NCBI GenBank assembly: GCA_021162935.1
Contig: JAGGXR010000157.1
Location: forward strand, 1 to 64,000
DNA length: 64,000 nt
DNA from: Deltaproteobacteria bacterium
GTDB taxonomy: Bacteria > Myxococcota_A > Polyangia > HGW-17 > SLPX01
Direction: 5' to 3'
The notes beneath the pieces are model-generated. The model did not search any database. It had not been told where the DNA came from and worked only from the letters and a program-made list of their open reading frames with translations. A program made the translations under genes and the position numbers. This document shows, in pieces, positions 19,857-58,512 of this stretch (position 1 is the stretch's first letter; each line of letters opens with the position of its first letter).

Positions 19857-19917
19857 CTGTCTGACATGGATGATGTGGTACTACTTTGTGTCTTGGATGG
19901 GCAAGGAGGCTCTAGAG

Positions 19918-20442
19918 ATGAGACGTCGAGCATCTGGTTTCACCCTGATCGAACTCATGATCGTGGTGGCCATCATCGCTATATTGGCGGCTGTGGCCAT
20001 TCCAGCCTTCGTCAAGTACCTGAGGCAGGCGAAAACCGCCGAGGCGCCGTTGAACCTCAAGAAGATATTTGACGCGTCGGTGCTCTACTTCGAGGAGGAA
20101 CACAGCAAACGGAGCGGCAGGGCCATCAAGGCGCGTTTCCCGAGGAGTGTCGGGATGACGCCGAGGAGGCGCTGCTGCAAGTATCCAGGCGGTCGCTGCA
20201 GGCGTGTCAATTGGGACAACATGACCTGGCGTGCGCTCAAGTTTGCCATCAATGACCCCCATTATTTTCAATATCGATTGGTGGCGGTCGGCAGAGGAAC
20301 GCGGGCCAAATTTACGGCTCGTGCTCAGGCCGATCTGGACTGTGACCGCAGGTTTTCCACATACGAACGGGCCGCCAGCGTGAGTAGTGACATGAAGGTC
20401 GTGGGCACTGGGGCCTTATACGTGAATCTGCCCATCGAGTAG
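19918..20442 (+). CDS. Type IV pilin-like / pseudopilin protein
   Basis: Prepilin with a very short leader (MRRRASG) cut before F, followed by the class III consensus FTLIELMIVVAIIAILA with Glu at mature position 5. It is 174 aa in total. The first hydrophobic helix continues into IPAFVKYLRQAKTAEA, then a globular part with several cysteines (CCKYPGGRC and a later C) and an overall high content of Arg/Lys, unusual for a major pilin. The start at 19918 follows AGGAGG (about 19903-19908) by roughly 9 bases; a frame from 19870 would bury the prepilin motif. No pilus assembly genes are nearby, so it may be an orphan minor pilin. It is divergent from the NSS transporter. Confidence 0.88.
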   Translation: MRRRASGFTLIELMIVVAIIAILAAVAIPAFVKYLRQAKTAEAPLNLKKIFDASVLYFEEEHSKRSGRAIKARFPRSVGMTPRRRCCKYPGGRCRRVNWDNMTWRALKFAINDPHYFQYRLVAVGRGTRAKFTARAQADLDCDRRFSTYERAASVSSDMKVVGTGALYVNLPIE

Positions 20443-24205: not shown

Positions 24206-25843
24206 TTAGAGTTCCGTTTTTTTTCGTCGCATTTTTCTCGTGGCCAACAGGACGAATCCAGCCAGGATGACCAGGAAGGGTAGACCGACCATGTTCGCTA
24301 ACTTGATGGCCAGGATCTTGGCCCTGCTGTCGGGCAGGGTGAGACTGCGATCCTGGGCCATCTTGTTTCTGAGTTTGACCAGAGTTTCGTCCTGGGCGAG
24401 CCAGTCCATCACGTTTTGGATGAAGACGCGGTTCGGCATCATCTGGCGGGTCAGCCACAGCATGTCCGCGTCTGCGATGACCACGATGCGTGCGGTTCCT
24501 TTGCTGTGTTTTACAGCAAGTTTCGCGGTGCCGGTTGCGTCTTTGGTGTTCGCCGATGCAGCGAGGCTCGGCAGCGATCCTTCGACGGCGACGCCCAGGA
24601 GATAGGCCTTTAGCTTCGTGTCCTCCGAGGGGCGAGGCTTGCTCTGGATGCTGAAGATGAACGGAGGTTTTTGGACCCATGCTTTTGAACTGGTCACCAT
24701 TAAGGGCAAGATGTGGAAGGGTTTGCCTTTGCCCTTGCCGAGGTAGGTCTGCTTCACCGAAAGGGTGGACGCCAGGAACGGGGTGACGGTGCCCCTCATG
24801 CCCGGAACCCGGATGGCCGGGATGGCCGGGTGGAAGATGACTCGTCGTCCCACGGGAAAGATCTGGAGCTTGTGATCCATGACGATATCCTGATTGATGG
24901 TGACACCCCAGGTTTTGAGCAGGTCTTCCAGACCGGAATGCCCGCCTACGAAAATGGGAGGCATGCGGTTCTTCTGCATCATCATCATGGGCCGTTGGCG
25001 TTTCGTGAGCCCATCGATCATAAAGAGAGCAGACTTGCCCTTCATGATGAAGTCGTTGATGAGCTTCTCTTCTTTTTTCGTATAGGGACGGTTCGGTGTG
25101 GCCACCAGCAGGATGTCCGCGTTGTCCGGCAGAGACGTCTTGCCCGCGGTCGGATACATCTGCACTTCGTACTGGGTGAAGAGTGCTTGGAGGAACTGTT
25201 TGATCTTGTCCTGCTGCTGTATGGGGAAGGCGCCGTGGCCGGTCAGGACGAGCACTTTCTTGCGCCGTACCGTGAGTCGTTTGATCCGTTCACTGAGCAG
25301 GTATTCGATGTTCCGTTCGATGCCGGGGAAGATCTGCGGCAGCACCTCGACCTGTTCGGATTTGCCCGGCGCTGTGTACGACAGGACGATGCCGAAGGTG
25401 ATGGTGCGTGCTTCGAGGGCATGGGCGGCCTTGGCCCGCGCAACGAAGGCCTTGATCCCGTATCGCTCGGCTTCTTTCTTATATTCGTCTTTCAGTTCGG
25501 GGTGGATGACCTCCCACTTGAAATTGCCGTTGGAGGCGTTCTTGTATTCGTCCAGGAGGTCTTCGATGTACTGAGCCGTTTCACGGTAGCCCGGCAGTAA
25601 TTTCTCGGAGACGAAGACCTTGACGTGGAGTGGCCGTGGCAAAGACTTGATGAGCTTTTTGCTCGATGCGGACAGCGTGTACAGATTGTCTTCGGTCAGG
25701 TCGCCTCTGCTGTAGACCCGGGCGGAAATTACGTTGACGAGGACGAGCCCTACCACCACCAGGACGGCGAACAGGATGGCATTGACGCCAATGGTTCGTT
25801 TGCGGCTCGCCGTGCTCTTCTGTGTCTTGTTGTGCGCGGTCAT
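24206..25843 (-). CDS. GldG-like auxiliary protein of ABC transporter
   Basis: 545 aa, family ABC_transp_aux/GldG. An N-terminal membrane span (residues 18-42) is followed by a periplasmic region starting RGDLTEDNLYTLSASS, the diagnostic segment of the family. Next come LHVKVFVSEKLLPGY, a YIEDLLDEYK helix, and KKVLVLTGHGAFP from the central Rossmann-like domain. A second membrane span lies near the C-terminus (PFLVILAGFVLLATRK) before a basic end RKMRRKKTEL. It starts three bases after the permease stop, so it is co-translated. In gliding Bacteroidetes GldG works with GldA/GldF; here the locus probably forms an exporter of unknown cargo. Confidence 0.88.
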   Translation of the reverse strand: MTAHNKTQKSTASRKRTIGVNAILFAVLVVVGLVLVNVISARVYSRGDLTEDNLYTLSASSKKLIKSLPRPLHVKVFVSEKLLPGYRETAQYIEDLLDEYKNASNGNFKWEVIHPELKDEYKKEAERYGIKAFVARAKAAHALEARTITFGIVLSYTAPGKSEQVEVLPQIFPGIERNIEYLLSERIKRLTVRRKKVLVLTGHGAFPIQQQDKIKQFLQALFTQYEVQMYPTAGKTSLPDNADILLVATPNRPYTKKEEKLINDFIMKGKSALFMIDGLTKRQRPMMMMQKNRMPPIFVGGHSGLEDLLKTWGVTINQDIVMDHKLQIFPVGRRVIFHPAIPAIRVPGMRGTVTPFLASTLSVKQTYLGKGKGKPFHILPLMVTSSKAWVQKPPFIFSIQSKPRPSEDTKLKAYLLGVAVEGSLPSLAASANTKDATGTAKLAVKHSKGTARIVVIADADMLWLTRQMMPNRVFIQNVMDWLAQDETLVKLRNKMAQDRSLTLPDSRAKILAIKLANMVGLPFLVILAGFVLLATRKMRRKKTEL

Positions 25844-25846
25844 GGC

Positions 25847-26569
25847 TTACCTCCACCTCCTGCTTTCAAGGGACTGAACAGCCAAAAGGAGGCTTGCTCC
25901 AATGATCGACAGATAATAGATGAAGTCCCGGGTATCCAAGACTCCTTTGGAGATGTTCTTCATGTGGGTGCCCAGTGCCAGGTACTGGAAGAACCCCACG
26001 AGCGAGGAGGGCAGCCACATCAGGGTCTGAGGGTTGCCCAGTTCCCACAGCATCAGGCAGGAAAAGGCACCGATGATGAATGCAAGGAACTGGGATTTGG
26101 TCCAGCTCGACGTCATCAGGCCGATGGCGAGCGTGCAGGCGCCCATGAAGAGGAGCCCGAGGTAGCCACCCACGGTGACGCCCCAGTCCAGGTTGCCCAT
26201 GGCGGCAATTGTGATGGGGTAGGCGAGCGAGAGCACGAGAGCTGCTGTCAGGACGGTCAAGGCGGCCAGATACTTTCCGAGCACCACGGCCCAGTCCGTC
26301 AGGGGCATGGACAGGAGCAGGCTCATGGTGCCCCTGCCCTTTTCTTCGCTGATGAGGTGCATGGTCAGGGCAGGCCCCACGAAACTCAAGATCCATGGAG
26401 AAAATGCGAAGAAGGGCCGCATGTTCGCCTCGGGCTGCGCCGCCTCGAGGATCAGGTTCAAGCCTTTCCAGCCCATGTAAAACAACAAGATGACAATGGC
26501 GGCATAGGCCACCGGTGAGTAGAAGTACTCACCCAATTCCCGTTTGTAGATGGTCCAGGTCTTGCTCAT
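25847..26569 (-). CDS. ABC-2 type permease (GldF-like)
   Basis: 240-aa inner-membrane permease with six predicted spans, typical ABC2_membrane length. The cytosolic N-terminus MSKTWTIYKRELGEYFYSPVAY (start MSKTWTIYKREL) matches the 'KREl..yF.sp' element common to GldF/NosY-type permeases. The first extracellular part and SEEKGRGTMSLLLSMPLT correspond to the conserved coupling loop. It lies 61 bases after the ATPase gene and 3 bases before the GldG-like gene. Confidence 0.9.
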   Translation of the reverse strand: MSKTWTIYKRELGEYFYSPVAYAAIVILLFYMGWKGLNLILEAAQPEANMRPFFAFSPWILSFVGPALTMHLISEEKGRGTMSLLLSMPLTDWAVVLGKYLAALTVLTAALVLSLAYPITIAAMGNLDWGVTVGGYLGLLFMGACTLAIGLMTSSWTKSQFLAFIIGAFSCLMLWELGNPQTLMWLPSSLVGFFQYLALGTHMKNISKGVLDTRDFIYYLSIIGASLLLAVQSLESRRWR

Positions 26570-26630
26570 GGTTCGGTCTCCCTGTTCGGGTTCCCAGGTT
26601 CGTCACACAAAGGGGCGAACGTCCAATGGT

Positions 26631-27821
26631 TCAGGCCGCAGCTCCAATTTCTACGGCGTCGCCTACGGTCATGGTCCGGAAAATATCTTCGAGGCTCGTG
26701 ATGCTGCGTTCCACCGCCACGAGCGACATGCCCGCGGATTGGACCACGCTCAGAAGTTTCGGTTGGCCTGGGTCTTTGCCCTTGCGGCAGACCACCTTGG
26801 CCAGAAGATTTCCATTGTGTCGGGTCACCTCGACGGAAGCCACGCCGGCCACGGATCGGGCGGGCACTGCAAAATCATCCGCCTCCTTGCCGTTCGGATT
26901 CATTTCGAACCGATACATGGCCTGGCCGTTTCGGTCGATGACGTCCTGTGGACGGCCGTCTTCGAGGATTTTTCCATGGTCGATGATCACGATGCGATCG
27001 CAGACCGCCTCGACCTCGGCCAGGATGTGCGTGCTCACGAGTAGAGTCTTGTCCTTTCCCAGGGCCTTGATCAGATTCCGAACGTCAGCGATCTGGTTCG
27101 GATCCAGACCGGTCCATGGTTCGTCCATAATCAGGATAGATGGATCGTGGACCATGGCCTGAGCGAGGCCGACGCGTTGGCGGTATCCTTTCGAAAGCTC
27201 GCCGATGGGACGGCCGAGCACGGACGTCAGACCCGTCAATTCGCAGGTCTCCTTGATACGCCGCTTTCGATCCTTTTTTGGAACGTCCCGGACCTCGGCC
27301 ACGAATTGGAGGAATTCGAGCACGCTCATGGCCGGATACACGGGAGTGTCTTCAGGTAGATACCCGATGGAGCGCCGGACCGCCATGGACTCGGTCAACG
27401 TGTCGTGTCCGGCGATTTTGGCTCGTCCTCCGGTGGGAGCCAGGAGACAGGTGAGCATTTTCATGGTCGTGCTCTTGCCCGCCCCGTTGGGCCCCAGGAT
27501 CCCCACCACCTCGCCCCTGCGGACCTGGAAGCTGATGTGGTCCACCGCGTCGATGGGGCCATAGGCCTTGTGGAGGTCCTGTACGTCGATGAGGACCTCG
27601 TCCGTACCGACGTGGTCGTGCTTGGCCAGGTCTTTCACCGGTGTGGCCCCCACGTCCTTGTCGGCCGGGCTGGATGTCTTGTCTTTTTTGGATCCTTCGG
27701 CGGCGCCAGCCTCTTGGGCCTTTGATTCCTCGGCCTTCGACCCTTCGGTTTTTTGTTGCGTGCCTTTGGATTCTACCTGTGCTTCATCCGTCGGTTGATT
27801 CTTCTCGTCGTTTTTGCTCAT
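26631..27821 (-). CDS. ABC transporter ATP-binding protein with acidic N-terminal extension
   Basis: 396 aa. Residues 1-75 are an unusual Lys/Glu/Ala-rich low-complexity extension; the nucleotide-binding domain follows. Walker A is GPNGAGKST, Q-loop LTCLLAPTGG, signature LSKGYRQRVGLA, Walker B ILIMDEPWTGLDP and switch histidine in VSTHIL. The domain ends with the usual ABC-2 C-terminal regulatory region (about 100 residues). The start at 27821 is preferred because it opens the hydrophilic MSKNDEKN; a frame to 28061 would run through the promoter. First gene of the minus-strand operon with permease, GldG-like and DUF4340 proteins. Confidence 0.9.
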   Translation of the reverse strand: MSKNDEKNQPTDEAQVESKGTQQKTEGSKAEESKAQEAGAAEGSKKDKTSSPADKDVGATPVKDLAKHDHVGTDEVLIDVQDLHKAYGPIDAVDHISFQVRRGEVVGILGPNGAGKSTTMKMLTCLLAPTGGRAKIAGHDTLTESMAVRRSIGYLPEDTPVYPAMSVLEFLQFVAEVRDVPKKDRKRRIKETCELTGLTSVLGRPIGELSKGYRQRVGLAQAMVHDPSILIMDEPWTGLDPNQIADVRNLIKALGKDKTLLVSTHILAEVEAVCDRIVIIDHGKILEDGRPQDVIDRNGQAMYRFEMNPNGKEADDFAVPARSVAGVASVEVTRHNGNLLAKVVCRKGKDPGQPKLLSVVQSAGMSLVAVERSITSLEDIFRTMTVGDAVEIGAAA

Positions 27822-34407: not shown

Positions 34408-34818
34408 ATGAGTGATGGTGAGGTAAAGCGTGGCGTTGCGGAGGGCCTGTCGTCAGGTGACGAGGCTGGTCGCCCCGCCGGTCAGGGAGACGATTTTGCC
34501 GGAGGGAATTTGGTTTCTGACGCGAGAGAATTGCTCGACGAGGCACAGATTGCTTTCGGCTATGGAGATTTTCGTCAGGCTCGTGCCCTGGCCAAGAAGG
34601 TGGTGGAGATGGGCAGGCGAGGCGGCGGCTTGGGCGGGGACAGCCTGCATGAGTCGGAGGGATCCGATGATGGGGGCGATGGAGAATTCGGAAGCACCCC
34701 GTGGCGCGAGGCTGAGGGGCTGTTGATGCAAATGGCACCTGACCGGGTGGCCATCGGCGTGGGGATTGCTTGCCTGGTCGCCATTTTCGTTCTTGCATGG
34801 ACGTACCTGGGGCGGTAG
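34408..34818 (+). CDS. Small protein with TPR-like helix pair and C-terminal membrane anchor
   Basis: 136 aa, unknown. The N-terminal 35 residues are disordered and acidic. A helical segment 'LLDEAQIAFGYGDFRQARAL' (about 41-60) resembles one TPR hairpin. A Gly/Asp-rich linker leads to a single C-terminal hydrophobic segment (VAIGVGIACLVAIFVLAWTYL) ending almost at the stop, so the protein is probably tail-anchored with the N-terminus in the cytoplasm. It is divergent from the hydrolase, and 200 bases separate it from the HEAT gene. Confidence 0.6.
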   Translation: MSDGEVKRGVAEGLSSGDEAGRPAGQGDDFAGGNLVSDARELLDEAQIAFGYGDFRQARALAKKVVEMGRRGGGLGGDSLHESEGSDDGGDGEFGSTPWREAEGLLMQMAPDRVAIGVGIACLVAIFVLAWTYLGR

Positions 34819-35018: not shown

Positions 35019-35825
35019 ATGAAGAGGGCGACAAGCCTTGGAATCCTGATGGTCGTGGTTTTGGTTGGGGGGACGACCCGGGCGTCCGGCCGGAGCGTCG
35101 AGGCCTTGGCGACTGACCTGGCCGGCGGAGACATGAGCAAGGCCATGGCTGCTGCTCACGTTCTGGGCAAGATCCAGACTTCTCAGGCCACGGATGTGTT
35201 GATGGAGACGTTGTTGTTGGGTGTTCCCCCCAAGTTGTCCGTGGCCCTCATCCACGCACTGTCCGGGCGGTCGAAAGCATTCGATATCCTCGTGCACGCC
35301 TGCGGGAATCGAGAGGCATCGGTTCGAGCGGCTGCTCTGGAGATCCTTGGAAGCATCCAGGACCAGAAGACCGAGTTACGCACCTATGGCCTGGCCATGG
35401 ATGCCTTGTCCGATGGGGCGTCTGCGGTTCGAGCCGCTGGTGCGAGGTTACTCGTTTTCTTGAAAAAACGCAGCATGGGTGGGATTCGGGCCACCAAAGC
35501 CGAGGAGAAATTGCTCCGGTTGCTTCTTCTCCGCAAGGACCAACTTGCGGCCAAGATTGGGCTGTCCGCGCTTGGAGGGGCAAGAACCGCACGGTTCCTT
35601 GCCGTGCATATGGAGGAACTCCCCCCTCGGATCGTGACGACCATCTACGGCGCTTTGCTGAAACGGCCGGATTTTGGTCCGGAACCGGTACGTTTTTGGG
35701 TGGTGAAGGTGCTGTCGGGAATGACCGGGCCGGAGGCCATCGCCGCGGTCATGGAGTACGTGGCCGGCCATCAGGGGGGTAAGTCGGCATCGGTCCTGCT
35801 TGCTCGAAAGGTGGCTGAACGGTAA
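35019..35825 (+). CDS. Secreted HEAT-repeat protein
   Basis: 268 aa. Signal peptide KRATSLGILMVVVLVGGTTRASG, then five to six HEAT/PBS-lyase-like helical repeats ('AAAHVLGKIQTSQATDVLMETL', here AAAHVLGKIQTSQ and TDVLMETL; 'VRAAALEILGSIQ'; 'VRAAGARLLVFLKK'). A scaffold role in the periplasm is inferred. Start at 35019 with GAGGAG about 7 bases upstream. First of four closely spaced genes (gaps of 35, 54 and 6 bases) that encode HEAT, PQQ+HEAT, AgmX-like and cyclic-nucleotide-binding proteins. Confidence 0.75.
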   Translation: MKRATSLGILMVVVLVGGTTRASGRSVEALATDLAGGDMSKAMAAAHVLGKIQTSQATDVLMETLLLGVPPKLSVALIHALSGRSKAFDILVHACGNREASVRAAALEILGSIQDQKTELRTYGLAMDALSDGASAVRAAGARLLVFLKKRSMGGIRATKAEEKLLRLLLLRKDQLAAKIGLSALGGARTARFLAVHMEELPPRIVTTIYGALLKRPDFGPEPVRFWVVKVLSGMTGPEAIAAVMEYVAGHQGGKSASVLLARKVAER

Positions 35826-35860
35826 GGCGCGTTCGCGTGTGACAGATGTGGGAGGCAGTG

Positions 35861-37777
35861 ATGTTCCTTGTCGATCGAATCCATCGATACTCGTTCCGAC
35901 CGGCGGTTTTTGCCACGGCCGTCCTGGCTTCGTTCTGGACGGCTTGTGGGCAGAAGCCGTTTTCTCCGCACCGGCTGGACAGCACCGGAGGCGATGTTTC
36001 CGGGTTTCTGCGGGGGCTTGGGACCATTGCGAGACATCCGGTGAACCGCACGAGGCATCCCATGGCGTTTCTGGCCGTGACGAGCCCGGACGGCATCGCT
36101 GCCGTGGACATGGAAGCGGGCAAGGTCGTTTGGCGACAGCCTGTGTCCGATCGCGATTCTCGGTTGGTCGTGGGCAGGCGCAACGTCTATTACGTGTCGA
36201 AAAGTCCAGTGGCGCTCGTGGCGCTGGATGTGACAACCGGCCGTCGTCGCTGGAAGCGGCCCCTAGGTGTCGTCAAGGGGCGTGGTGTCTATGGAATGGC
36301 GGCTGACGGGGATCGGGTCTACGTCGTGATCGGTCAGACGGGAACGTTCGTACCCGGCAAGTGGAGTTCGTACGTCGAGGCATGGGATGGCGGCGACGGT
36401 TCTCTGCGGTGGCGCCGAGAAGCTCCCGGCCGGTTGGGCGCGCCGTCCGCTGCGGGCGGATACGTCTTTTTCCCGTATCGACAGCAGTACCTGTCCGTGC
36501 TCGACGCTGGGTCGGGCAAGGAGGTCCTTCGGGTTCGGACTCGGAAGGAATACGTGACCTTCGTTCGCGTGCTGCCCGAAGGGGTGTATTTCGGTGGCAA
36601 CAGTGGGGCGTTCAAGCTGAACGCCCGTGCCGCCACGGGTCTGCCGGAAAAGGCGGATTTTTTGCGTCTGGACCTGTCTCGGGCCGGCAAGTCGGCTGGG
36701 CTGCTTTCGTCGGGGCGACAAACGGGCACGATGCGGATCGCCTATTATTGGGACGGATATGAGCCCGTGATGTTTCGGTACACGGCCTACGATCGGAACA
36801 TGCTCCTGTGGAGGGGCGGTAGGGGCCGGTCCTTTGCGAAGCATCGGGCAGTCCTTGAGTACTTTCGGTATTTTTTTGGATTCGACACGGAAAGCGGAAT
36901 GCTCAAGTGGGTCCATATCGAGCCCGAGCAGGACGTGTTGAGTTCTGCAGACGTGGGGACCGCGCTTCTTTATGCGACCAAGGATGGCCAGATCGTTTCC
37001 GTGGATCCTGAAACGGGAGACGTGCTGTGGCGTATGAAGACCGGGCTTTCGCTCGTCGGGGCCACGTTCGATGCGGAAGGATTCAGTGTAACGGGGAGGC
37101 GGGTTTCGGCGCAAAATCTGGTGGATGTGCTCAAGAGGATCGTGTTCGATCCCGATAGGCGCCTTTCAGTCGCCAAGCTTTTCGCATTGACGCAATTGAG
37201 AAATCTCAAGGGAACAGAGGTCACCCAGATCCTTTTGCATATCCTGTCGGACCGGAAGTTGCCGCTGTCCGTACGCCTGAAAGCGGAACAGGTCCTGGTC
37301 GAACGGGTGAGCCCCGAGTCGGTGCCTCTATTGCTGGCGGTGCTGCATCACCATTTCGATTACGTGACTGGTGAGAGGGCCATGGCAGTGGGGCCGGTGG
37401 CGATGGCGCTCGGCAAGATGAAGGTCACCAAGGCGGTCAAGGCGCTTTCGGAGCACCTGACGGATGCCTCGACGCCGCTTTCCACCGTGCGAAAGATCGT
37501 CACGGCCATGGCCAAGATTGGCGGGCGCTCGGTGGTGGATGTGTTTCGGCAGTTCCTGCTGGACTATCGGGCGGATGCTGCTTTTAAGCGCTCGCTGGAC
37601 GTGTTGTTTCGAGTGGTCGATGTCCTTTCCACTCAGGGCGGGGTGGCGGAACGCCAGCTTTTGGCGTTCGTGGCCGAAGATCCATATAGCCTGCCTCAGC
37701 TTCGTAATTACATTGGAGAGAAGCTCTCCGTGCATGCATCCGCGGGCGTCGACTCGACGCACAAGCGGCATAGATAG
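35861..37777 (+). CDS. PQQ-like propeller lipoprotein with C-terminal HEAT repeats
   Basis: 638 aa. The signal ends in SFWTACGQK, a probable lipobox. Residues 65-420 carry PQQ-type beta-propeller repeats: 'VDMEAGKVVWRQPV', 'LDVTTGRRRWKRPL', 'WDGGDGSLRWRRE', 'LDAGSGKEVLRV', 'FDTESGMLKWVHI' and 'VDPETGDVLWRMKT', i.e. six or more blades. Residues 425-625 are HEAT-like helices (VRLKAEQVLVERV, AMAVGPVAMALGKMKV, VRKIVTAMAKIGG). No quinone-binding residues can be claimed, so it is more likely a BamB-like structural propeller. The ATG at 35861 has GGAGG just upstream; ATG 35846 is an alternative. It shares HEAT repeats with the gene before it. Confidence 0.8.
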   Translation: MFLVDRIHRYSFRPAVFATAVLASFWTACGQKPFSPHRLDSTGGDVSGFLRGLGTIARHPVNRTRHPMAFLAVTSPDGIAAVDMEAGKVVWRQPVSDRDSRLVVGRRNVYYVSKSPVALVALDVTTGRRRWKRPLGVVKGRGVYGMAADGDRVYVVIGQTGTFVPGKWSSYVEAWDGGDGSLRWRREAPGRLGAPSAAGGYVFFPYRQQYLSVLDAGSGKEVLRVRTRKEYVTFVRVLPEGVYFGGNSGAFKLNARAATGLPEKADFLRLDLSRAGKSAGLLSSGRQTGTMRIAYYWDGYEPVMFRYTAYDRNMLLWRGGRGRSFAKHRAVLEYFRYFFGFDTESGMLKWVHIEPEQDVLSSADVGTALLYATKDGQIVSVDPETGDVLWRMKTGLSLVGATFDAEGFSVTGRRVSAQNLVDVLKRIVFDPDRRLSVAKLFALTQLRNLKGTEVTQILLHILSDRKLPLSVRLKAEQVLVERVSPESVPLLLAVLHHHFDYVTGERAMAVGPVAMALGKMKVTKAVKALSEHLTDASTPLSTVRKIVTAMAKIGGRSVVDVFRQFLLDYRADAAFKRSLDVLFRVVDVLSTQGGVAERQLLAFVAEDPYSLPQLRNYIGEKLSVHASAGVDSTHKRHR

Positions 37778-37831
37778 CAGAAGTTCAATGGGGAATCGTT
37801 GTAGGGGTTTTGCCAAGTGAAGGAAGTGAAA

Positions 37832-38422
37832 ATGGTCATGAGACGAATTGCTGTAGTGGGAGTCCTGTGGTCCCTGGTTCTTGGGGGCTGCTCTCAGCAG
37901 AACGACAAGGAACTCAAAACGGTCAAAAGCCGTTATGAGAAGGTCACCAAGGACTATCAAGGCTGTCAGGATCGTATCGTACAGCTTCAGGATCGGAGCG
38001 TGAAGCTGGAGAGTGCCCTCAAGAAGATCCGCGCACAACCCTGCGAACTCGAATTGGACCCGGTGACATTGGAAGTGAAGGCGCGGCCGAATGCGGTCGT
38101 TCATTCCGGTGCCAGGCCGGCGTCTGGGCCTCCTCTGAACCTGGCCAAGGTGAAGACGAAGGTTCGTTCCGTTCGTCCGACACTCAAGACATGTTACGAG
38201 GAAGCGGCGAAGCGCGACAAGGTTCTGGGGAGCAAGGCGCAAAAGGTTACGTTGAAGTTTACTATTTACAATTCGGGTAAGGTGGGAAACATTAGAGTGC
38301 TCCCATACGTCGGGGGAGGTTTCGTGCCCTGTGTGAAGCGAGCTCTCGGTTCCTGGAAGTTCGAGAAGTTCGGCGGATATCCGAAGAGCTTCATGCAACG
38401 GATCCAGTTGACTCCCAAGTAG
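37832..38422 (+). CDS. Lipoprotein with coiled coil and AgmX/TonB-like C-terminal domain
   Basis: 196 aa. Lipobox LVLGGCSQQ, then a helical, likely coiled-coil stretch (KELKTVKSRYEKVTKDYQG ... LQDRSVKLESALKKI). The C-terminal 90 residues match the AgmX/PglI C-terminal pattern: VRPTLKTCYEEAAKRD, TLKFTIYNSGKVGNIRVL, VPCVKRALGSWKFEKF. This domain is TonB-like and in myxobacteria is linked to motility and envelope proteins (family knowledge). AGGA at 37821-37824 serves the ATG at 37832; ATG 37838 and GTG 37817 are alternatives. The next gene begins six bases after its stop. Confidence 0.82.
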   Translation: MVMRRIAVVGVLWSLVLGGCSQQNDKELKTVKSRYEKVTKDYQGCQDRIVQLQDRSVKLESALKKIRAQPCELELDPVTLEVKARPNAVVHSGARPASGPPLNLAKVKTKVRSVRPTLKTCYEEAAKRDKVLGSKAQKVTLKFTIYNSGKVGNIRVLPYVGGGFVPCVKRALGSWKFEKFGGYPKSFMQRIQLTPK

Positions 38423-38428
38423 GCGGCA

Positions 38429-41413
38429 ATGGCTGATTCCTCTAAGAAGCTGACGAAGAGACAACTCAAGAAGATCATCAAAGCGCAGGAATCGATCCTC
38501 AAGAAGGAACCTGGCAGTTTGGTGGCTCGTCTGAGGTTGGCCGGTGCCTTTCAGGAAATGGGCAAGGTCGCAGAAGCTCTCGATCAGTATCACAGTGTTG
38601 CGGAGGCCTATCGAGAGGAGGGAAAACAGGTCCGAGTGACGGCCGTGTGTCGGAGTATCCTGGAGTTCGCTCCGAAGGACGAGGTTGCTTTGGCCATGCT
38701 CGAGGCCGTGGAACTGCGGCCTACCGTTCGGGAGAAGGAGCGGTTGATCCCCGAGGAATTGCGAGAAGAGGACGATGCCGTCAGCGAATCCGATTCGAGC
38801 GAGTCCGAGTCGGACCAGATCGAACTGATCGAAGACGATACTGCGGCTTCGGGTCCGTCTTTGGGCGGAGGACAGAGCGACGTGGTTCCGTCGGAAGATG
38901 GAGGTGCCTTGGTGCCTCCTCATGGTCAAGGCATCAAGTCTGTGCCGCCGCTCCCCCAGAGACCTCCTGGAAGGGGGCCTGTGCCGCCGCCTCCCGAGAG
39001 ACATCCTGGAAGGCCTGTACCGCCGCCTCCCGAGAGACATCCTGGAAGGCCTGTGCCGCCGCCTCCCGAGAGACATCCTGAAGAAAGGGGGCCTGTGCCG
39101 CCGCCCGACAAGAGAGGCGGTCAGTCCAAAGAGACAGGTGCTCCGTCGAGTGCTCAACCTGGTCCGGTGCACAGGCCCAGCGCGGCCCGCCCGCCAATCC
39201 GGGACACCAAGAAATTAGTGTCAGGTGGGAAGGCGGGACCTGAGGCCAGCCCCAGGAAGGATGTTGCTTTGCCTGGTGAGACCGGGGTGCAGGCCAAGGA
39301 CGCCAAGAAACTCGTTTCACGCGGGAAGGGACGGGGCGGAGACCGAAAGGCCAAAGGCCTGGCTGCCGCTGTGCAAAAGGCCGTCGAGTCGGAGGGGGTG
39401 TCGTTCGGGGCTGGCGGTGCACCGTCAGGATCGAGCAGCGCATCTGAGGCTGGACCGAGCATCAACCCCGCCGCCCGGAGCACCATGCTGGGACGGGTTG
39501 CCGTGGTCAAGCGCGCCGTGCGTCGGTCTGCTCGGCCCTCTGGCGCGTTCGGGGAAAAGACGCCCATCAGACCTGTCGGTGCCTCTTCTGAGCCGGACGG
39601 CGCGATGGATGACACAAAGACCCCGTCTCGGGAGATTCCCGAAGCGGTGATGAGGCGTGCCTCGTCTCCGGACCTGAATGCCGTTCAGTCCAAAGTCGTT
39701 GCAGAGCCTGGAGAGCCCACGCTCGATCGTGACTCCGGAGGACCTGACGAACTCGAAGAGCCCACGCTCGAACGGCCATCTGGTGACCAGGGGGAGCCTA
39801 CGGTGGAGCGGCCAGCTGGTGATCAGGGGGAGCCCACGGTGGAGCGGCCATCTGGTGACCAGGGTGCCTCGTCGGGGCCTGAGGGGCGTGATGAGTCCCT
39901 CGATGGGAGGGTGACGGCGGTCCGCAAGGACCAAGAGCACCGGGATGGCGGACCGAAACGAGATGCTGCTGTGCTTCGACACCGACCTCCGCTGCCGACA
40001 GGAGCGCGCAAGACGGTTCGAAGCTATCCCATGAAGGATCCATTGGGGGTTCCGCCGATGACGGAGCAGACCGAGGAACTGACCGCTGACGGCGTTCCTC
40101 CCGAGATTCGCAGTGGTGGCGACGAACCGGCGGAGGCCTCGCGTGATCAGCGAGGTGCCGAGGCTGTGGATTCGTCTGGGAAACCGGAAAAGGTCGGGCG
40201 CAGCGGGGAACCTCGGTCGGTGCGACGGACGAGCCCGAGCTTGGCCAATTTGAGACAGATTTTTGACGCTCCCGATGGGACCATCGAAAATGTTCTTTTG
40301 GACGACGATGAAGAGGCAACCTTTGCTGCCATGGAGAGCAGTCTGGGTCGGTCACGAAAGACGGTCATGGGGTTGGGAGGCCTTTCTGACCTGAAGACGT
40401 CGAGCAAGAAGAGTTCAAAGCGGAAGTCGGCTTCCTCCAAAGCAAGTGAGGGGGAGGGGCGCACCGGAGGGACATCGGACCGTGCGTCGTCAGGAGTTCG
40501 TGCCTCGTCAGACAAGAAGGGGTCTCAATCGCCTGGTGCGGAAGCCGGGACGGGAGACGTTTCCGAGTTGGCGGTGGCGTTGGAAAATGTGGCGTTGTTC
40601 GATTCGCTTCCAAAGGATGCGCTCGACTACGTGCGTTCGAGGCTCGTACGCCGGTCGATGAAGGCCGGAGACGTGGTGGTCAAGGAGGGGGATCCTGGCA
40701 ATGCCCTGTTCGTGTTGCTCCATGGCCGGGTTGTGGTGGAGAAGCAGAGTCATGGGGACGGAAACGTGTCCGTGGCCGAATTGGGCCCAGGGAGTTTTTT
40801 CGGTGAGTTTGCCCTTCTGAGTGACCGCAAACGTCATGCCACGGTGCGGGCCGTGACCGACTGCGAGGTTATCGAGATCGCCAGAAAGGTCATCGGGCGC
40901 TTGGCCAAGTCGCACAAGGACGTCGCCCGGGCGCTGCGGAAGTTCTATCGTCATCGGCTGTTGGATACACTCTCCAAGGCGACTCCGTTTTTCGAGAAGT
41001 TGGGCGACAGCGAGCGCAAGGCATTGACGAACAGACTCCGATTCAAGCGTTTTGGGCCGGGAGATGCGATCATCCGTGAAGGAGAAGAAGGCGGCGGCTT
41101 CTATCTGATTTTGGTCGGTGAGGTGACGGTGACGAAAAACACGGCATCGGGGACGAAGGAGTTGGCTCGTCTGGGCGAGGGATCCTTCTTTGGTGAGATG
41201 TCGTTGATGAAGGGAAGGCCCGCCATGGCCACGGTCAGCGCTGCCGTTCCCACTGAAGTCGTGGAAGTGGGAGCCCAAGATTTCTATAAGGTTGTCGCCG
41301 ACTATCCGCAGATCTGGGAGGAAATGGACCGCGAGGTCCGGATGCGCGAACTGGCCAATCATGCCTTGTTGGCTGGAGGTCCCTATTCAGACGAGGCTCG
41401 TTCGGTGGTGTGA
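38429..41413 (+). CDS. Dual cyclic-nucleotide-binding-domain protein with TPR head and long disordered linker
   Basis: 994 aa, soluble. Residues 1-95 form TPR-like helices (SLVARLRLAGAFQEMGK, AEALDQYHSVAEAYREEGKQ). Residues 95-705 are low-complexity and strongly charged, with two tandem-repeat blocks (Pro-rich, Glu/Pro-rich). Two CRP-type cNMP-binding domains end the protein: the first near 725-835 with GDPGNALFVLLHGRV and PGSFFGEFALLSDRKRHATV, the second near 845-970 with GEEGGGFYLILVGEV and GSFFGEMSLMKGRPAMATV. The phosphate-binding cassette has FGE but R is found only in the 'KRHA' and 'RPAMA' positions, so nucleotide binding is plausible for both. No DNA-binding or enzyme domain is present, so it may be a scaffold or sensor. 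Last gene of the run from 35019. Confidence 0.85.
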   Translation: MADSSKKLTKRQLKKIIKAQESILKKEPGSLVARLRLAGAFQEMGKVAEALDQYHSVAEAYREEGKQVRVTAVCRSILEFAPKDEVALAMLEAVELRPTVREKERLIPEELREEDDAVSESDSSESESDQIELIEDDTAASGPSLGGGQSDVVPSEDGGALVPPHGQGIKSVPPLPQRPPGRGPVPPPPERHPGRPVPPPPERHPGRPVPPPPERHPEERGPVPPPDKRGGQSKETGAPSSAQPGPVHRPSAARPPIRDTKKLVSGGKAGPEASPRKDVALPGETGVQAKDAKKLVSRGKGRGGDRKAKGLAAAVQKAVESEGVSFGAGGAPSGSSSASEAGPSINPAARSTMLGRVAVVKRAVRRSARPSGAFGEKTPIRPVGASSEPDGAMDDTKTPSREIPEAVMRRASSPDLNAVQSKVVAEPGEPTLDRDSGGPDELEEPTLERPSGDQGEPTVERPAGDQGEPTVERPSGDQGASSGPEGRDESLDGRVTAVRKDQEHRDGGPKRDAAVLRHRPPLPTGARKTVRSYPMKDPLGVPPMTEQTEELTADGVPPEIRSGGDEPAEASRDQRGAEAVDSSGKPEKVGRSGEPRSVRRTSPSLANLRQIFDAPDGTIENVLLDDDEEATFAAMESSLGRSRKTVMGLGGLSDLKTSSKKSSKRKSASSKASEGEGRTGGTSDRASSGVRASSDKKGSQSPGAEAGTGDVSELAVALENVALFDSLPKDALDYVRSRLVRRSMKAGDVVVKEGDPGNALFVLLHGRVVVEKQSHGDGNVSVAELGPGSFFGEFALLSDRKRHATVRAVTDCEVIEIARKVIGRLAKSHKDVARALRKFYRHRLLDTLSKATPFFEKLGDSERKALTNRLRFKRFGPGDAIIREGEEGGGFYLILVGEVTVTKNTASGTKELARLGEGSFFGEMSLMKGRPAMATVSAAVPTEVVEVGAQDFYKVVADYPQIWEEMDREVRMRELANHALLAGGPYSDEARSVV
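38981..39088 (+). repeat. 36-base in-frame tandem repeat (three copies)
   Basis: Three copies encoding VPPPPERHPGRP inside the cNMP-binding protein, preceded by a diverged copy at about 38942-38980. Near-identical nucleotide sequence means recent expansion. Confidence 0.85.
39758..39865 (+). repeat. 36-base in-frame tandem repeat (three copies)
   Basis: Units 39758-39793, 39794-39829 and 39830-39865 encode EPT[LV]ERP[SA]GDQG in the linker of the cNMP-binding protein. It is a second, unrelated repeat of the same 12-residue length. Confidence 0.85.
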
Positions 41414-41417
41414 TGTC

Positions 41418-41457
41418 GTGTTCGTGCAGGGGCGACTGGAAGGCGCTGCACGAACAC
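41418..41457. terminator. Perfect 12-base inverted repeat between convergent genes
   Basis: GTGTTCGTGCAG (41418-41429) pairs with CTGCACGAACAC (41446-41457) around a 16-base loop, five bases after the stop of the cNMP-binding protein gene and 26 bases beyond the stop of the lipoprotein gene on the other strand. It probably ends or protects transcripts from both sides. No U-run. Confidence 0.55.
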
Positions 41458-41482
41458 AGGCAGCGCCTGCAATCCGTTCCGA

Positions 41483-42031
41483 TCAACGAATGAGATCAAC
41501 GGGGCGCGGATAGGGCGGCAGAGGATTGCCGTCGTCCACCACTCCGTCACCTCGTCTGTCATCGTCACTTGCATTCGAAGAGCCGTTCGCCCGCACTGCA
41601 CTCACTTGCCGGAATTCGTGGTTCCCCATCCGTTTATCGGGATTCGAGTTGGCATGTTCCATATAGGGCGTGGCGGTCTGGAGTGGCCAACGGCCGGTGG
41701 AAACCCACGTGGTCAGTTCTTCGAGACGATCGACGCAGAGTTGATGGCCATCGATGAAGAGGAGCCCGAGATGGGTGTTCTTGCCGATGGCTGCGAGCAC
41801 CACGTCACCATTCATGGTCCAATCCGGTTGCGTCAGGAGGTCGAAGCAACCAGGGAGGTCTTCTGCGACTTGGTTCGGGGCGACGATGTGGGGCACCTGG
41901 GAGGATGCACTGTACGCCGAGGTCGAAACATCCGTCTGACCTGGGTCCTGGCTGCACGCCGCCAGAGCCATGGCCGCGACGATGGATGCGACCGTAAACA
42001 TGGCTCCGATGTGTCTAGTTGCGCGAAGCAT
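41483..42031 (-). CDS. Small lipoprotein overlapping the sigma54 regulator gene
   Basis: 182 aa. The signal ends in ALAACSQDPG. The mature part holds 'LPGCFDLLTQPDWTMNG', 'LAAIGKNTHLGLLFIDGHQL' and a charged, disordered C-terminus (SNASDDDRRGDGVVDDG). AAGGAG sits 8 bases before the ATG at 42031. The start codon lies inside the end of the regulator gene (17-base overlap, different frame), so the two are translationally coupled. No family is recognised. The tight coupling suggests that the regulator and lipoprotein act in one pathway. Confidence 0.72.
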   Translation of the reverse strand: MLRATRHIGAMFTVASIVAAMALAACSQDPGQTDVSTSAYSASSQVPHIVAPNQVAEDLPGCFDLLTQPDWTMNGDVVLAAIGKNTHLGLLFIDGHQLCVDRLEELTTWVSTGRWPLQTATPYMEHANSNPDKRMGNHEFRQVSAVRANGSSNASDDDRRGDGVVDDGNPLPPYPRPVDLIR

Positions 42032-45000
42032 GGGATTCTCCTTTCGACTCAAATGCCGTGCTGTTGACGGACAGTCCGTGTTCCTTGACGAGCTGGCTCA
42101 GCCGAGGTCGTTTCATTCCAAGAACTTTGGCCGCTTGGGTGATATTCCCCTGGCTGGCATCCAGGGCTCGAACGATGCATTCTCGTTCGATGATTTTTTT
42201 CATGGCTTTCAGAGACAGCCCTTCGTCGAGGAGGTGTCGATAGGTGCTACCGAAGATGTCGGTGGGGTGGGCTGTGGCTGGTGCATTTGCGTCGGCACCG
42301 TCCTCGTTGGATAGCGCGGACGTTGGCAGTTCGGGATGGGAATGTCCAGCCAGGACGTTTTCCAGTTTCGGGGAGCGTTCCGTCGGTGTTTGCACGGAGC
42401 GGCCGGACGAGAGGAACTGCGATACGAGCGAAGCGGTGATTTCCGAGCCATCTGCGAACACCCACGCAGATCGAAGGACGTTTTCCAGCTCTCGGACGTT
42501 TCCTGGCCAGCCGTGAGTCATGAGTAGGTTGCCGGCTTCTTCGGTCAGATGTTTTGGCTGGACGCCGTCCGTTCTGGCCAGGTGGTCCAGGATATGCTTG
42601 GCAAGGATCAAGACGTCCTGCCCACGAGCCCTGAGGGGAGGCAACTCCACCTGGATGCCCTTGAGACGGTAGTAGAGGTCCTCTCGGAAGGTCCCTGCCT
42701 GCACCATGGCGTCGAGATTCCTGTTGGTGGCGCAGACGATGCGGACGTTCACGTTGATGGACTGAGTGCCGCCGACACGTTCAAACGTCCGTTCCTGCAG
42801 GACTCGAAGGAGCGCCACCTGGGTTCTTGGAGAGATGTCACCGATTTCGTCGAGGAAGATGGTGCCTCCATCGGCCACTTCGAATCGTCCCTTCTTGGTG
42901 CGGAGTGCGCCGGTGAAGGCCCCTCGCTCGTGGCCGAACAGCTCACTGAGCAGGAGTGTTTCCACGAGAGCTGCGCAGTTGACCTTGACGAGAGGCATGT
43001 CGTGTCGCGTGCTGAGATCGTGGATGGCTTCTGCAGCAAGTTCCTTGCCCGTGCCGCTTTCTCCCGTGAGCAGAACCGTTGTCTCACTTGCCGCGATTCG
43101 TTCGAGGGCCTTGAGAGTTTGCTGGAAAACGGGATGAGCGCCAATCATATTCGTGATAGCTGGTGCGCTGTCGTTGCGATTCTTTTTGATGTTCGTGGGA
43201 ACGAAACGGTCAGATGACTGCGTCGTTCGTTTCGGGGCCGACAGGAACGAGGAGCGTTTGTCTTCCAAGAGGCTGAGATACGGGTTTCGGCAGGACACTG
43301 ATGGATATTGCTTCATCATGGAGGGCGGCACTGTGGCGCGAATGGAGGCTTCCACTTCCCGGGCCTGCCGTCTCCAGTGGGTGGAAGCGGGTTGATCGCC
43401 CAGGGCGGCATGTGCCTCGCTCATGCGGGCCATGGTCTTCCACTGGCCATCGGGATCGAGCGATTCCTCGAATTGGTCAAGGGCCTGCCCTAGGATGTCG
43501 AGTGCTTCCTTTGGTGTCCTGGGCAGCTTCTGTTCCGCCATGGTGAGGAGGAGTCGCCCTTTTAGTTTTGGAGATTCCGTTTTCGGGAGCTGAGCCAGGA
43601 TGTCCATCGCATCGGTCTGGTTCCCCATCCGGGCTTCGATACGGGCCAACTCGATGCCGACGGTCGTCTCGTCTTCGGGCCGAGACTGTTTTCTGGCGAG
43701 CTGGCGGACTTTGACGAGGTCGCGTTTGCTCTGCATGAGGAGGCCGTCTTCGGCTTTGAGACGGGCGTCCAGGAAATCCAAGAAAAACAGGGCCGTAGAA
43801 TTGGCCGCCCGGGACAGGAGAAATCGTGCCTGGCTTGTCATGGCCTTGGACTGTTCCGTGTCACCCAATTCGAGGTAGAGATCGCCCAGGTCCACGGTCA
43901 CCCATGCCATGAGGCCTTGGTTTGCAAGACGTTGGAAGTTCCTGACCGACTCATGGTACCAAAAGAGCGCTTTTCGGTAGTCTCGTCGCCAATGGGCCAG
44001 GACCGCCAGGTTCTGCTGGCAGAACGCCTGGTGTCTCCGGTCTCCGGTTCGTTCCGCCATCTCCAATGCTTCCGCATAGAGAGTCGCCGCAGCCTCCTGA
44101 TCGCCGCCTCGTAGTTTGATGATCCCGAGGTTCACGAGGCTGCGGATTTCGGATTCCGATCGTCCTCGCTGTCGAGCATCTTCGATGGCATGCTCGAACA
44201 TGTGAGCCGCAGAGGAGAGGTCTCCCCGACTGGCATGGAGTTTGCCTCGGACCAGCAGAAGATCGGCCAGACCAGCGTTGTCCTCGTCGAGGTCTTCGGC
44301 TTTGTCCAGAAAATGAGCCGCATTTTCATGGCGGCCTTCGGTCAGGGCCACTTCCGCCAGGTCGATGAGAACTTCGGCTCGTTCACGAATGGCGTCGGAC
44401 GGCAGGACGCGCAGCGCCTCGTCGAGGTGTCGGCGTGCATCGGCCGTTCGGCCCAGCAGGCGGCAGAGCCTGCCCGCGTGTCTGCTGAAGGAAGGCAGGT
44501 CTTCCAATTTGAGTTCGCGTTCCAGGACGTCCAAGCCGGCTTGGTAGTCACCGCGCCGTTCATCGAGCATGGCCGCACGCTGCGCCAGGGTCTTGGTGAA
44601 CTCCGTCGTGCGTTGGGTGCGTCGTCCGGCCCCCACGACGATGGCTTCGGTTCGGTGACAGAGTTCGGCCGCCTCGTGAACGTCACCCGCTGCGTCTAGG
44701 AGTTCGACGGCCTCGAGTACCAGGGACAGCAGTTCGTCCAGGTCATGGGATTCATCCCAAGCCTGAATGAGATGCCTGGCGGCAGCGGGCACGTTTCCTT
44801 CGGCGTTGAGGTACTCACCGATTCGAAAGTGCCAGGAGCGAAGGAGTTCTGGCATCACAGTGGACGCCAGGGCGGTGCGGTCTTCAGAGCTACGGAAGTC
44901 GATTTGGATTTCGCCTTCGAGAACTGTGTGGGTCATCAATCCGCTGGAAAGAAGTTCTTCGATGGCGATTCCGATTTGGCCAGCGGAGACGCCCGAGAGT

Positions 45001-45950
45001 TCCGTGAGTCGACGCACGCCGATGGGACGATTCGTTGCAGCGCAGCACACGGCGACTTCGCGCGCTTGGTTCGAGAGTCGTTGGAATCGCTGGCGGACGA
45101 GGCCGTCGGCGTCGGGCGTGCCCCAGGTCAGCAGGGCCTCGATGAGTCGTGGGCGACCACCGGTCAGACGGGCTACTCGATGAGCCACGTCATCGCGTCG
45201 AAGGAGGTCTGCAACGCCGTTGGCGGGCAGAGGTCGAATTTCCAGGGCATGGGCGGCCAGATTCCCTGTCCAGAAGGGCCTGTCTTCTATGGAATCGCTT
45301 CTCCAGGATAGCAGGAGCATACCCGGAAAGGCTTTATCGTGGATAGGATCAGCGGTCAGCCCGTCGGCAGGAGCGAGCCTATGGGCAAGCTCCTCGATGA
45401 GGGCGATCGTGTCCGAACTCGTGTGATGCAGATTCGAAACCAGGACGATCGGAGGACGGATGCTGGCCACCTTGGCCAGATGCTCCGACAGGATTGCAAT
45501 GAGTGCGGCGTGGCGGTCCTGGTTTTCGTCGGCAGCTTTCCCCGGGGCCATGGCCGCCAGGATGCGGTTGGCGGCAAAGCGTGCCTCACGGGAGACCAGG
45601 GACGGGTTGAACTCGTCGATGTAGCTCGCTGCCTGTTCTAGGAGTGCTTCGAGGGGGCGGGAGGGTCGTTGGAATCGATGGCACTGGGTTGCGAATACCC
45701 CGATGCCTTCGAGCTTGGATTGGCGCCGGAATTCTTCCAGCACCAGGCTTTTGCCGACTCCCTTGGGGCCCAAGACCAGGACCACGGTTCCGTGGTTCTT
45801 GCCATGGGTCTCATAGAGATCCCGCAGGGCCGTGAGTTCCCCCTGCCTCCCGGCCGAACCAAGTTTGAGGTTGGCGCCATCGTCCGTTAGGGGCGCGATG
45901 TCGCTCGACCAATGTTGGTTGACCACCATGTCGTTTGGAATTTTCACCAT
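42015..45950 (-). CDS. Giant sigma54-dependent regulator with STAND-type ATPase, TPR array and Fis-type HTH
   Basis: 1311 aa. The N-terminus (about 35-330) is an AAA/STAND-like ATPase with Walker A GPKGVGKSLV. A winged-helix-like region and then a long TPR array (about 400-880, with pairs such as 'ALEMAERTGDRRHQAFCQQN') follow. Residues 930-1170 form a sigma54 activator AAA+ domain: GESGTGKELAA, the sigma54-contact loop GAFTGA, Walker B GGTIFLDEIGD, the R-finger region FREDLYYRLKG and GWPGNVRELENVL. The C-terminus is a Fis-type HTH (NITQAAKVLGMKRPRLSQLV). GAFTGA is intact, so sigma54 activation is expected. The N-terminal half resembles MalT/AfsR-like or PknK-like sensors that bind a signal via TPRs. 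It probably controls the lipoprotein gene or distant sigma54 promoters. Confidence 0.9.
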   Translation of the reverse strand: MVKIPNDMVVNQHWSSDIAPLTDDGANLKLGSAGRQGELTALRDLYETHGKNHGTVVLVLGPKGVGKSLVLEEFRRQSKLEGIGVFATQCHRFQRPSRPLEALLEQAASYIDEFNPSLVSREARFAANRILAAMAPGKAADENQDRHAALIAILSEHLAKVASIRPPIVLVSNLHHTSSDTIALIEELAHRLAPADGLTADPIHDKAFPGMLLLSWRSDSIEDRPFWTGNLAAHALEIRPLPANGVADLLRRDDVAHRVARLTGGRPRLIEALLTWGTPDADGLVRQRFQRLSNQAREVAVCCAATNRPIGVRRLTELSGVSAGQIGIAIEELLSSGLMTHTVLEGEIQIDFRSSEDRTALASTVMPELLRSWHFRIGEYLNAEGNVPAAARHLIQAWDESHDLDELLSLVLEAVELLDAAGDVHEAAELCHRTEAIVVGAGRRTQRTTEFTKTLAQRAAMLDERRGDYQAGLDVLERELKLEDLPSFSRHAGRLCRLLGRTADARRHLDEALRVLPSDAIRERAEVLIDLAEVALTEGRHENAAHFLDKAEDLDEDNAGLADLLLVRGKLHASRGDLSSAAHMFEHAIEDARQRGRSESEIRSLVNLGIIKLRGGDQEAAATLYAEALEMAERTGDRRHQAFCQQNLAVLAHWRRDYRKALFWYHESVRNFQRLANQGLMAWVTVDLGDLYLELGDTEQSKAMTSQARFLLSRAANSTALFFLDFLDARLKAEDGLLMQSKRDLVKVRQLARKQSRPEDETTVGIELARIEARMGNQTDAMDILAQLPKTESPKLKGRLLLTMAEQKLPRTPKEALDILGQALDQFEESLDPDGQWKTMARMSEAHAALGDQPASTHWRRQAREVEASIRATVPPSMMKQYPSVSCRNPYLSLLEDKRSSFLSAPKRTTQSSDRFVPTNIKKNRNDSAPAITNMIGAHPVFQQTLKALERIAASETTVLLTGESGTGKELAAEAIHDLSTRHDMPLVKVNCAALVETLLLSELFGHERGAFTGALRTKKGRFEVADGGTIFLDEIGDISPRTQVALLRVLQERTFERVGGTQSINVNVRIVCATNRNLDAMVQAGTFREDLYYRLKGIQVELPPLRARGQDVLILAKHILDHLARTDGVQPKHLTEEAGNLLMTHGWPGNVRELENVLRSAWVFADGSEITASLVSQFLSSGRSVQTPTERSPKLENVLAGHSHPELPTSALSNEDGADANAPATAHPTDIFGSTYRHLLDEGLSLKAMKKIIERECIVRALDASQGNITQAAKVLGMKRPRLSQLVKEHGLSVNSTAFESKGESHASRN

Positions 45951-57741: not shown

Positions 57742-58512
57742 ATGATCGAGTCTGCATATAGTTTTTTGAGCAAGGGCGGCGTGTTGATGTGGCCGATCCT
57801 GGGCGCGTCCGTGCTTGCGCTTGCTCTGTTCCTGGAGCGTCTTTGGAGCCTACGGGCGGCGAACGTGGTGCCTCCTCGTTTCGTGGCTCGGATCAAGTCA
57901 TTGCTTCGTCAACGACAGATCGACGGCGCACGGGTTTTGTGCCAGGAAAACGAATCCGTGGTGGCCAGGGTCGCAGAGGTGGCTCTGGATCGGTGGACCC
58001 GCGGGGTGGATGTTCGCGAGGGGGTTGAGGAACGCGGTCGCCTCGAATCGTCCCGGTTGGACCGTTTTTTGGAAGCTCTTGGGGTCATTGCGGCCATTGA
58101 GCCACTCATGGGTCTGCTTGGAACGGTCATGGGGATGATCAAGGTCTTTCATAATGTGAGCAAGCGGGCGACCGAGGCCGGCGTGGACGTGGGCCTGCTC
58201 GCAAGCGGTATCTGGGAGGCTCTGATCACCACGGCCTTTGGGCTCGCCATCGCCATTCCGGTCTTCATCGGGTACAAATATCTCATTTCGCGCGTGGATC
58301 GATTCATTTTGGATCTCGAAGAGGGTTCCACTGAACTCGTCGATGTTCTCGAAGAGATTGGTCCGGCTGGCGCATCGAGCAGAACGCATGACGCTCGTGG
58401 ATCCGAGACGACGGGAGGTGCGGACAACGTTTCTGCAGGGGCTGAGGCCAGTGAAGAGTCTGCGGCTGCCTCGTCCGGGGGGGCGGCGACCGACGGAGGA
58501 CGGAGCACGTGA
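57742..58512 (+). CDS. MotA/TolQ/ExbB-family proton channel protein
   Basis: 256 aa, inner membrane. Three spans: KGGVLMWPILGASVLALALF (14-33), then a cytosolic loop (EERGRLESSRLDRFLEAL), and two spans in the conserved core IEPLMGLLGTVMGMIKVF and LLASGIWEALITTAFGLAIAIP. Works with the ExbD partner as a stator energised by proton flow. The C-terminal 50 residues are Ser/Ala/Gly-rich and disordered, longer than usual. The stop overlaps the ExbD start by four bases (GTGA, 58509-58512). Partners could be the TonB-like AgmX domain proteins, but linkage is only inferred. Confidence 0.92.
   Translation: MIESAYSFLSKGGVLMWPILGASVLALALFLERLWSLRAANVVPPRFVARIKSLLRQRQIDGARVLCQENESVVARVAEVALDRWTRGVDVREGVEERGRLESSRLDRFLEALGVIAAIEPLMGLLGTVMGMIKVFHNVSKRATEAGVDVGLLASGIWEALITTAFGLAIAIPVFIGYKYLISRVDRFILDLEEGSTELVDVLEEIGPAGASSRTHDARGSETTGGADNVSAGAEASEESAAASSGGAATDGGRST

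Follow-up and report, generated by a model that had tools for sequence, protein, structure and literature searches.

The window analysed here (64,000 nt, contig JAGGXR010000157.1 of assembly GCA_021162935.1; 5.13 Mb in 168 contigs) carries on its forward strand a run of four genes, of which the first two, encoding a HEAT-repeat protein and a lipoprotein that joins a beta-propeller to HEAT repeats (propeller+HEAT), form an obligate gene pair. The HEAT gene was found directly upstream of the propeller+HEAT gene in 66 of 71 distinct loci from Polyangia (Myxococcota), and in 29 of 41 pairs the coding sequences share 1 or 4 bases. We give about even credence to the reading that the run is one operon with a two-protein periplasmic scaffold at its core, to which an AgmX-type lipoprotein and a cyclic-nucleotide-binding (CNB) protein are lineage-dependent additions; the basis for this is gene content, order, overlaps, predicted folds and pocket residues.

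Gene content and expression of the run

The four open reading frames (ORFs) encode the HEAT-repeat protein (268 residues, 35019..35825; Pfam HEAT_2, E = 3.5e-10), the propeller+HEAT lipoprotein (638 residues, 35861..37777; Pfam PQQ_2, 1e-17, and HEAT_2, 1.1e-7), a lipoprotein with an AgmX/PglI C-terminal domain (196 residues, 37832..38422; NF033768, narrowly over its curated cut-off with 40.3 vs 40 bits) and a protein composed of a TPR region, a linker and two CNB domains (994 residues, 38429..41413; Pfam cNMP_binding twice, 1.4e-44). An ORF check bore out their positions as they had been given in the first-pass annotation (i.e. by a model that saw only the letters and their ORFs), with gaps of 35, 54 and 6 bases. 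The same annotation had the four genes as probably co-transcribed, a claim that is upheld by the short gaps, the conserved order and the want of any promoter match inside the run: none of the three intergenic gaps holds a sigma-70-like site, and terminator-like sites within the run did not rise above the level seen in shuffled sequences. A promoter or terminator that would split the run was accordingly rejected (none beyond chance), and the four genes are very likely co-transcribed.

Distribution and gene order

The surroundings of each locus were scored with family hidden Markov models built for this analysis. The propeller+HEAT gene was present in 46 of 59 relatives (33 of the 42 good genomes), and a profile search in a 237-genome sample of the phylum returned 30 positive genomes, all of the same class. 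The named relatives that carry it are metagenome-assembled genomes of Myxococcota, among them Kofleriaceae (placed in Polyangia by NCBI taxonomy) and Polyangium sp., and one single-contig genome (G225; 10,327,335 bases) holds three copies. By our own reading of their causes, the five loci that depart from the paired arrangement are three second copies of tandem pairs (L064, L071, L077), one truncated locus (L070) and one frameshifted locus (L100). The three tandem cases belong to one family (f8), in which the propeller+HEAT gene is duplicated behind a single HEAT gene.

Conservation of gene order in relatives had been named in the first-pass annotation as the test that could refute it, and the outcome of the survey was strongly positive, with the order kept in more than ten families, at protein identities of 20-55%. 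Downstream of the pair, AgmX was found in 18 of the 59 loci with room for it and CNB in 16 of 54, and about 30 distinct loci (shorter ones included) carry one or both in the same order. AgmX and CNB come after the pair in the same order as in the window in families f1, f2, f5, f13, f15, f16, f18, f21 and others, the run of f1 and f2 being HEAT, propeller/HEAT, AgmX and CNB; families f3 and f4 hold HEAT, propeller/HEAT and CNB without AgmX, and some f6/f7 loci have AgmX and no adjacent CNB. In a separate genome search with the dual-CNB part, orthologues stood beside the propeller+HEAT gene in nearly all genomes in which the contig continues (in G010 a contig end separates the two). Since many distant relatives hold the genes in this arrangement, we regard the run as a real gene module.

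In its fullest form, which several families show, the arrangement starts with genes for a kinase, an MXAN_5187-type protein, NamZ, NadD, a DUF2520 protein and an exported protein of ~180 residues that matches no family (the f3 protein), followed by HEAT, propeller/HEAT, ferredoxin, AgmX and CNB. The gene inserted between propeller+HEAT and AgmX (at L044, L048, L050, L055, L063, L065 and other loci) encodes a thioredoxin-like [2Fe-2S] ferredoxin, an unexpected companion to exported proteins. In family f15 (L055, L063, L065) lapA-like and lapB-like genes come after the CNB gene. Type II secretion genes, guessed from gene sizes to lie ahead of the f6 operon, were discarded, as Pfam gives FG-GAP and PEGA proteins there.

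The HEAT and propeller+HEAT proteins

The product of the first gene, whose ATG is preceded by a GAGG-type ribosome site, has a signal-like N-terminus without a lipobox and is predicted to be a soluble, periplasmic protein. It is conserved across its full length (alignment of 12 relatives), with an L-x-x-R-x-D-F-G-P region kept, and its closest solved proteins are the designed alphaRep and other HEAT proteins. The first-pass annotation had gene 2 carry the same repeat as this protein, which stands for the type of repeat and fails for the sequence: no similarity was detected between the two, and we rejected an origin of the HEAT protein by duplication of the HEAT region in gene 2.

The lipobox cysteine (Cys29) of the propeller+HEAT lipoprotein is nearly invariant among relatives. 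Its AlphaFold2 (AF2) model (mean predicted local distance difference test score, pLDDT, 87.9; predicted template modelling score 0.84) shows a propeller of ~7 blades at residues 68-404 (blades counted visually in the list of strands) and a helical HEAT solenoid at residues ~420-630. In comparison with the PDB, BamB was the top fold for the propeller, PQQ enzymes were also among the best, and no solved protein was found to match propeller and solenoid jointly by sequence. A propeller followed by an alpha-solenoid is the architecture that PMC2799638 defines for membrane coats and describes from planctomycetes, and the modelled protein resembles the planctomycete membrane-coat-like proteins in having an N-terminal beta-propeller and a C-terminal alpha-solenoid; unlike them, it is a lipoprotein with HEAT repeats, and no sequence link connects it to them. 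Full-length similarity to coat folds was absent, with template modelling scores to clathrin, COPI and IFT chains lying mostly at 0.15-0.2, and because these scores are too low we claim no relation to coat proteins.

The AgmX-type lipoprotein

The third protein starts with a lipobox whose cysteine (Cys20) is invariant in the alignment of relatives, followed by a 44-residue, coiled-coil-like helix (residues 25-68) and a C-terminal domain with two invariant cysteines (C121 and C167). The top PDB folds for this domain are TonB C-terminal domains (E ~4e-3, probability 1.0; pLDDT of the AF2 model 74). The earlier description of the protein as TonB-like thus applies to the fold of its C-terminal domain, and not to the rest: Pfam TonB_C scores 14.6 bits vs a cut-off of 24.6, and in place of the TonB-type inner-membrane anchor for ExbBD coupling there is the lipobox, with no other hydrophobic segment. 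The C-Y...C...W pattern and the TonB-like fold are shared with the AgmX/PglI proteins of NF033768. AgmX itself has further domains, which are missing from gene 3; unlike AgmX, the protein is a short lipoprotein with one coiled coil.

The dual-CNB protein

Given that its product has no hydrophobic segment, gene 4 is inferred to encode a cytosolic protein, and the localizations assigned by the first-pass annotation (an exported HEAT protein, two lipoproteins and a cytosolic fourth product) agree with the sequence features described above. The N-terminal TPR_19 match is weak (Pfam E = 0.0033), while the two PF00027 domains (150.4 bits) conform to the CNB fold. Between them and the N-terminus, the disordered linker of 600 residues noted earlier was confirmed (residues ~110-710; rich in P, G, S, A, R, E and D). 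It is not conserved, the ORF for the whole protein ranging from 441 to 994 residues in complete relatives.

We compiled the CNB motifs of 22 sequences, of which 21, the window's included, cover the arginine site of the first domain (CNB1). The Glu and Arg of the CNB1 phosphate-binding cassette are present in 19 of these 21 (window motif FGEFALLSDRKRHATV), and most relatives follow the consensus FGEFALL-x-D-x-[RK]-R-H-A-[ST]-[VI]. In PKA-type domains this arginine contacts the phosphate. It is lost from the second domain (CNB2) in the window (FGEMSLMKGRPAMATV) and occurs there in none of the sequences, almost all of which have Ala. The nearest PDB relatives of the protein include PKG and PKA regulatory domains, which it resembles in its tandem CNB pair and in the Glu and Arg of the CNB1 pocket, and from which it differs in a family-specific His after the CNB1 Arg, in the very long disordered linker and in the lack of a kinase in the run. 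The same genome encodes class III nucleotide cyclases and two other TPR-dual-CNB proteins, each with one complete and one degenerate CNB domain.

A proposed periplasmic scaffold

We reason that the propeller+HEAT lipoprotein would be held by its lipid in the outer membrane, where the beta-propeller and the alpha-solenoid could offer docking surfaces, and that the soluble HEAT protein, whose translation is probably coupled to that of the lipoprotein in most relatives, would bind it in a fixed ratio. Through its coiled coil and its TonB-like C-terminal domain with the Cys pair, the AgmX-type lipoprotein probably serves as an adaptor that joins this scaffold to a further partner in the envelope. 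In the cytosol, CNB1 could bind a cyclic nucleotide and CNB2 may be a degenerate structural domain, while the TPR region and the linker might recruit a partner; in the lineages that keep the CNB gene, its product would supply a cAMP-type input to the operon. As its most probable function, the scaffold would organise or assemble outer-membrane or surface components rather than carry out catalysis.

The first-pass annotation knew of no description of such a set of genes, and our literature search, from whose coverage most subscription papers were missing, gave none for the run either. The individual domains are of known kinds; the propeller-solenoid lipoprotein with its coupled HEAT partner, and its combination with AgmX and CNB, appear to be undescribed as far as can be told. 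What emerges is a two-gene envelope module, mostly with overlapping codons, that occurs in many families of one class and in up to three copies per genome, and because it is kept so widely and in multiple copies it probably does something important. With a cyclic-nucleotide sensor in many lineages, the operon is a defined gene set for envelope organisation in myxobacterial relatives, and it lets one ask whether cAMP acts on their envelope. A bolder version, in which a Polyangia-wide outer-membrane propeller-solenoid/HEAT scaffold under cytosolic cyclic-nucleotide control, wired to MglA in one family, makes up a transenvelope system unlike those known from Myxococcus, strikes us as rather improbable.

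Evidence against the scaffold operon and alternative explanations

Several observations weigh against the scaffold operon as we describe it. Many families (f8, f11, f14, f17, f22, f23) hold only the HEAT/propeller pair, with a PEGA-domain protein kinase near several of these loci, so that the four products need not form a single machine. In one genome (G017) the CNB and ferredoxin genes (L127) lie apart from the pair. Most genes that precede the operon in relatives have housekeeping roles (NadD, NamZ), and the clustering may for this reason be partly locational. Finally, the position after the CNB1 Arg, His in gene 4, is taken by other residues in the paralogues of the same genome, and its ligand may therefore differ.

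The alternative that survives best, and which we still hold to be unlikely, is a single envelope-spanning signalling or assembly complex in which the CNB protein is bridged to the periplasmic set by a putative inner-membrane protein. It draws on the tight operon, on the order of all four genes being kept in many families and on the f4 operon lying back to back with mglBA; moreover, domains of the AgmX type are components of gliding complexes extending through the periplasm. Such an assembly of all four products had been put forward in the first-pass annotation and found no support here: a check for hydrophobic segments showed that none of the four proteins crosses the inner membrane, and pair-only and AgmX-less loci are common. 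A 136-residue tail-anchored ORF upstream of the run (34408-34818) was considered as the inner-membrane bridge and rejected, having no relative at 40 loci. As the pair is found alone and no product crosses the inner membrane, the four-part complex remains a minority reading.

Motility offers another explanation, by which the CNB protein would act on polarity or motility as an effector in an MglA-type pathway, with the periplasmic proteins as parts of an envelope complex for gliding or type IV pili. MglBA serves a known transenvelope motor as its polarity switch, and in family f4, which belongs to the same taxonomic order as the window, mglB-mglA are divergent and directly upstream of HEAT; they lie back to back with the HEAT-propeller-CNB genes at each of the six loci whose sequence extends far enough (L049, L053, L054, L056, L060, L061; the f4 neighbours match solved MglA and MglB at 8.9e-102 and 1.7e-52). 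The AgmX/PglI domain, too, is named after a gliding gene. Against this, the polarity module is unlinked to the run in the window's genome and in the other families seen: mglBA of that genome sits on another contig, beside unrelated genes and without those of the run, and in other families lapA/lapB-like or housekeeping genes flank the operon. Among gliding genes only mglBA was found near the run, and only in f4 (the glt genes themselves were not searched for). The link confined to f4 is suggestive and not general, and the effector role appears improbable to us.

We similarly doubt that propeller+HEAT is a lineage-specific, BamB-like accessory of the beta-barrel assembly machinery, partnered by the HEAT protein. 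Among solved folds BamB ranks first for the propeller, of which it is also a leading family match, both proteins carry a PQQ-type beta-propeller on a lipoprotein, and the signal of propeller+HEAT is of the outer-membrane lipoprotein type. The propeller of BamB has eight blades and no further domain; propeller+HEAT has ~7, a C-terminal HEAT solenoid and a coupled HEAT partner, and is without a match in 13 of the 59 relatives. Identity with BamB itself was rejected, since its score against the BamB family model TIGR03300 (49.7 bits) lies far below the cut-off of 285.2 and a better, full-length candidate is encoded elsewhere in the genome (G000:C159; 134.7 bits vs 30.8 for the propeller+HEAT gene), one that likewise stays under the BamB cut-off.

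Mere co-location without shared function, i.e. neighbours in a housekeeping region preserved by slow rearrangement, fits the metabolic nature of several upstream partners and the varying downstream ones (transketolase and a tRNA-modification fusion included), and is made very improbable by an order kept at the identities given above, by the overlapping stop/start codons and by the persistence of the HEAT/propeller pair where every other neighbour has changed.

A convergent regulator-lipoprotein cassette

Facing the operon, on the reverse strand, are genes for a STAND-type (AAA_16 + TPR) sigma54-dependent activator (1311 residues, 42015..45950; Pfam Sigma54_activat 8.5e-72, AAA_16 9.1e-19, TPR_12 and HTH_8) and for a small lipoprotein with an [N/D]P-x-P motif (41483..42034), which overlaps the 3' end of the activator gene and has same-place relatives in ~10 lineages. 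Between the convergent genes we read an 8-bp perfect inverted repeat (GGCGCTGC-N10-GCAGCGCC, 41442..41467, no strand), without a T run and possibly serving as a two-way transcription end. A sigma54 promoter before the HEAT gene, as a target of the activator, was rejected: matches in the window did not exceed those in shuffles, and none falls in the upstream gap.

In several families the orthologue of the activator likewise converges on the operon, and in three genomes it lies apart from it. Every orthologue with a readable 3' flank is followed by the small lipoprotein, in several cases with overlapping codons (pairs at the window, L079, L080, L081, L085, L088, L091, L101, L130, L132 and L134), and because the two genes are also found together at sites apart from the operon they form a separable cassette. 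The lipoprotein has diverged almost fully, except for two cysteines and repeats of the form [N/D]P-[L/M/V/I/T]-P (e.g., DSNPLPA, NDPMPADG, SSNPMPG and DDPVPING, four times each, and also DPTPQPN); the window's protein has one clear copy (GNPLPPYP) and most relatives two to four. Across the 2.49 million ORF residues of the surveyed loci, nearly all ORFs with at least two [ND]P[MLV]P motifs are this gene, and no family model matching the small lipoprotein as such was found. The pairing of a STAND-sigma54 regulator with a fast-evolving repeat lipoprotein, linked to the operon but separable from it, is a second undescribed cassette.

Other genes of the window

Judged from translated sequence only, ExbB/TolQ-like and ExbD/TolR-like genes lie 16 kb downstream of the run (57742-58931). 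The ORFs at 24206-27821 resemble, by the look of their translations, a GldF/GldG-type ABC transporter set, and a prepilin-like protein with a GFTLIELMIVVAIIAILAAVAIPAF segment is encoded at 19870-20442.

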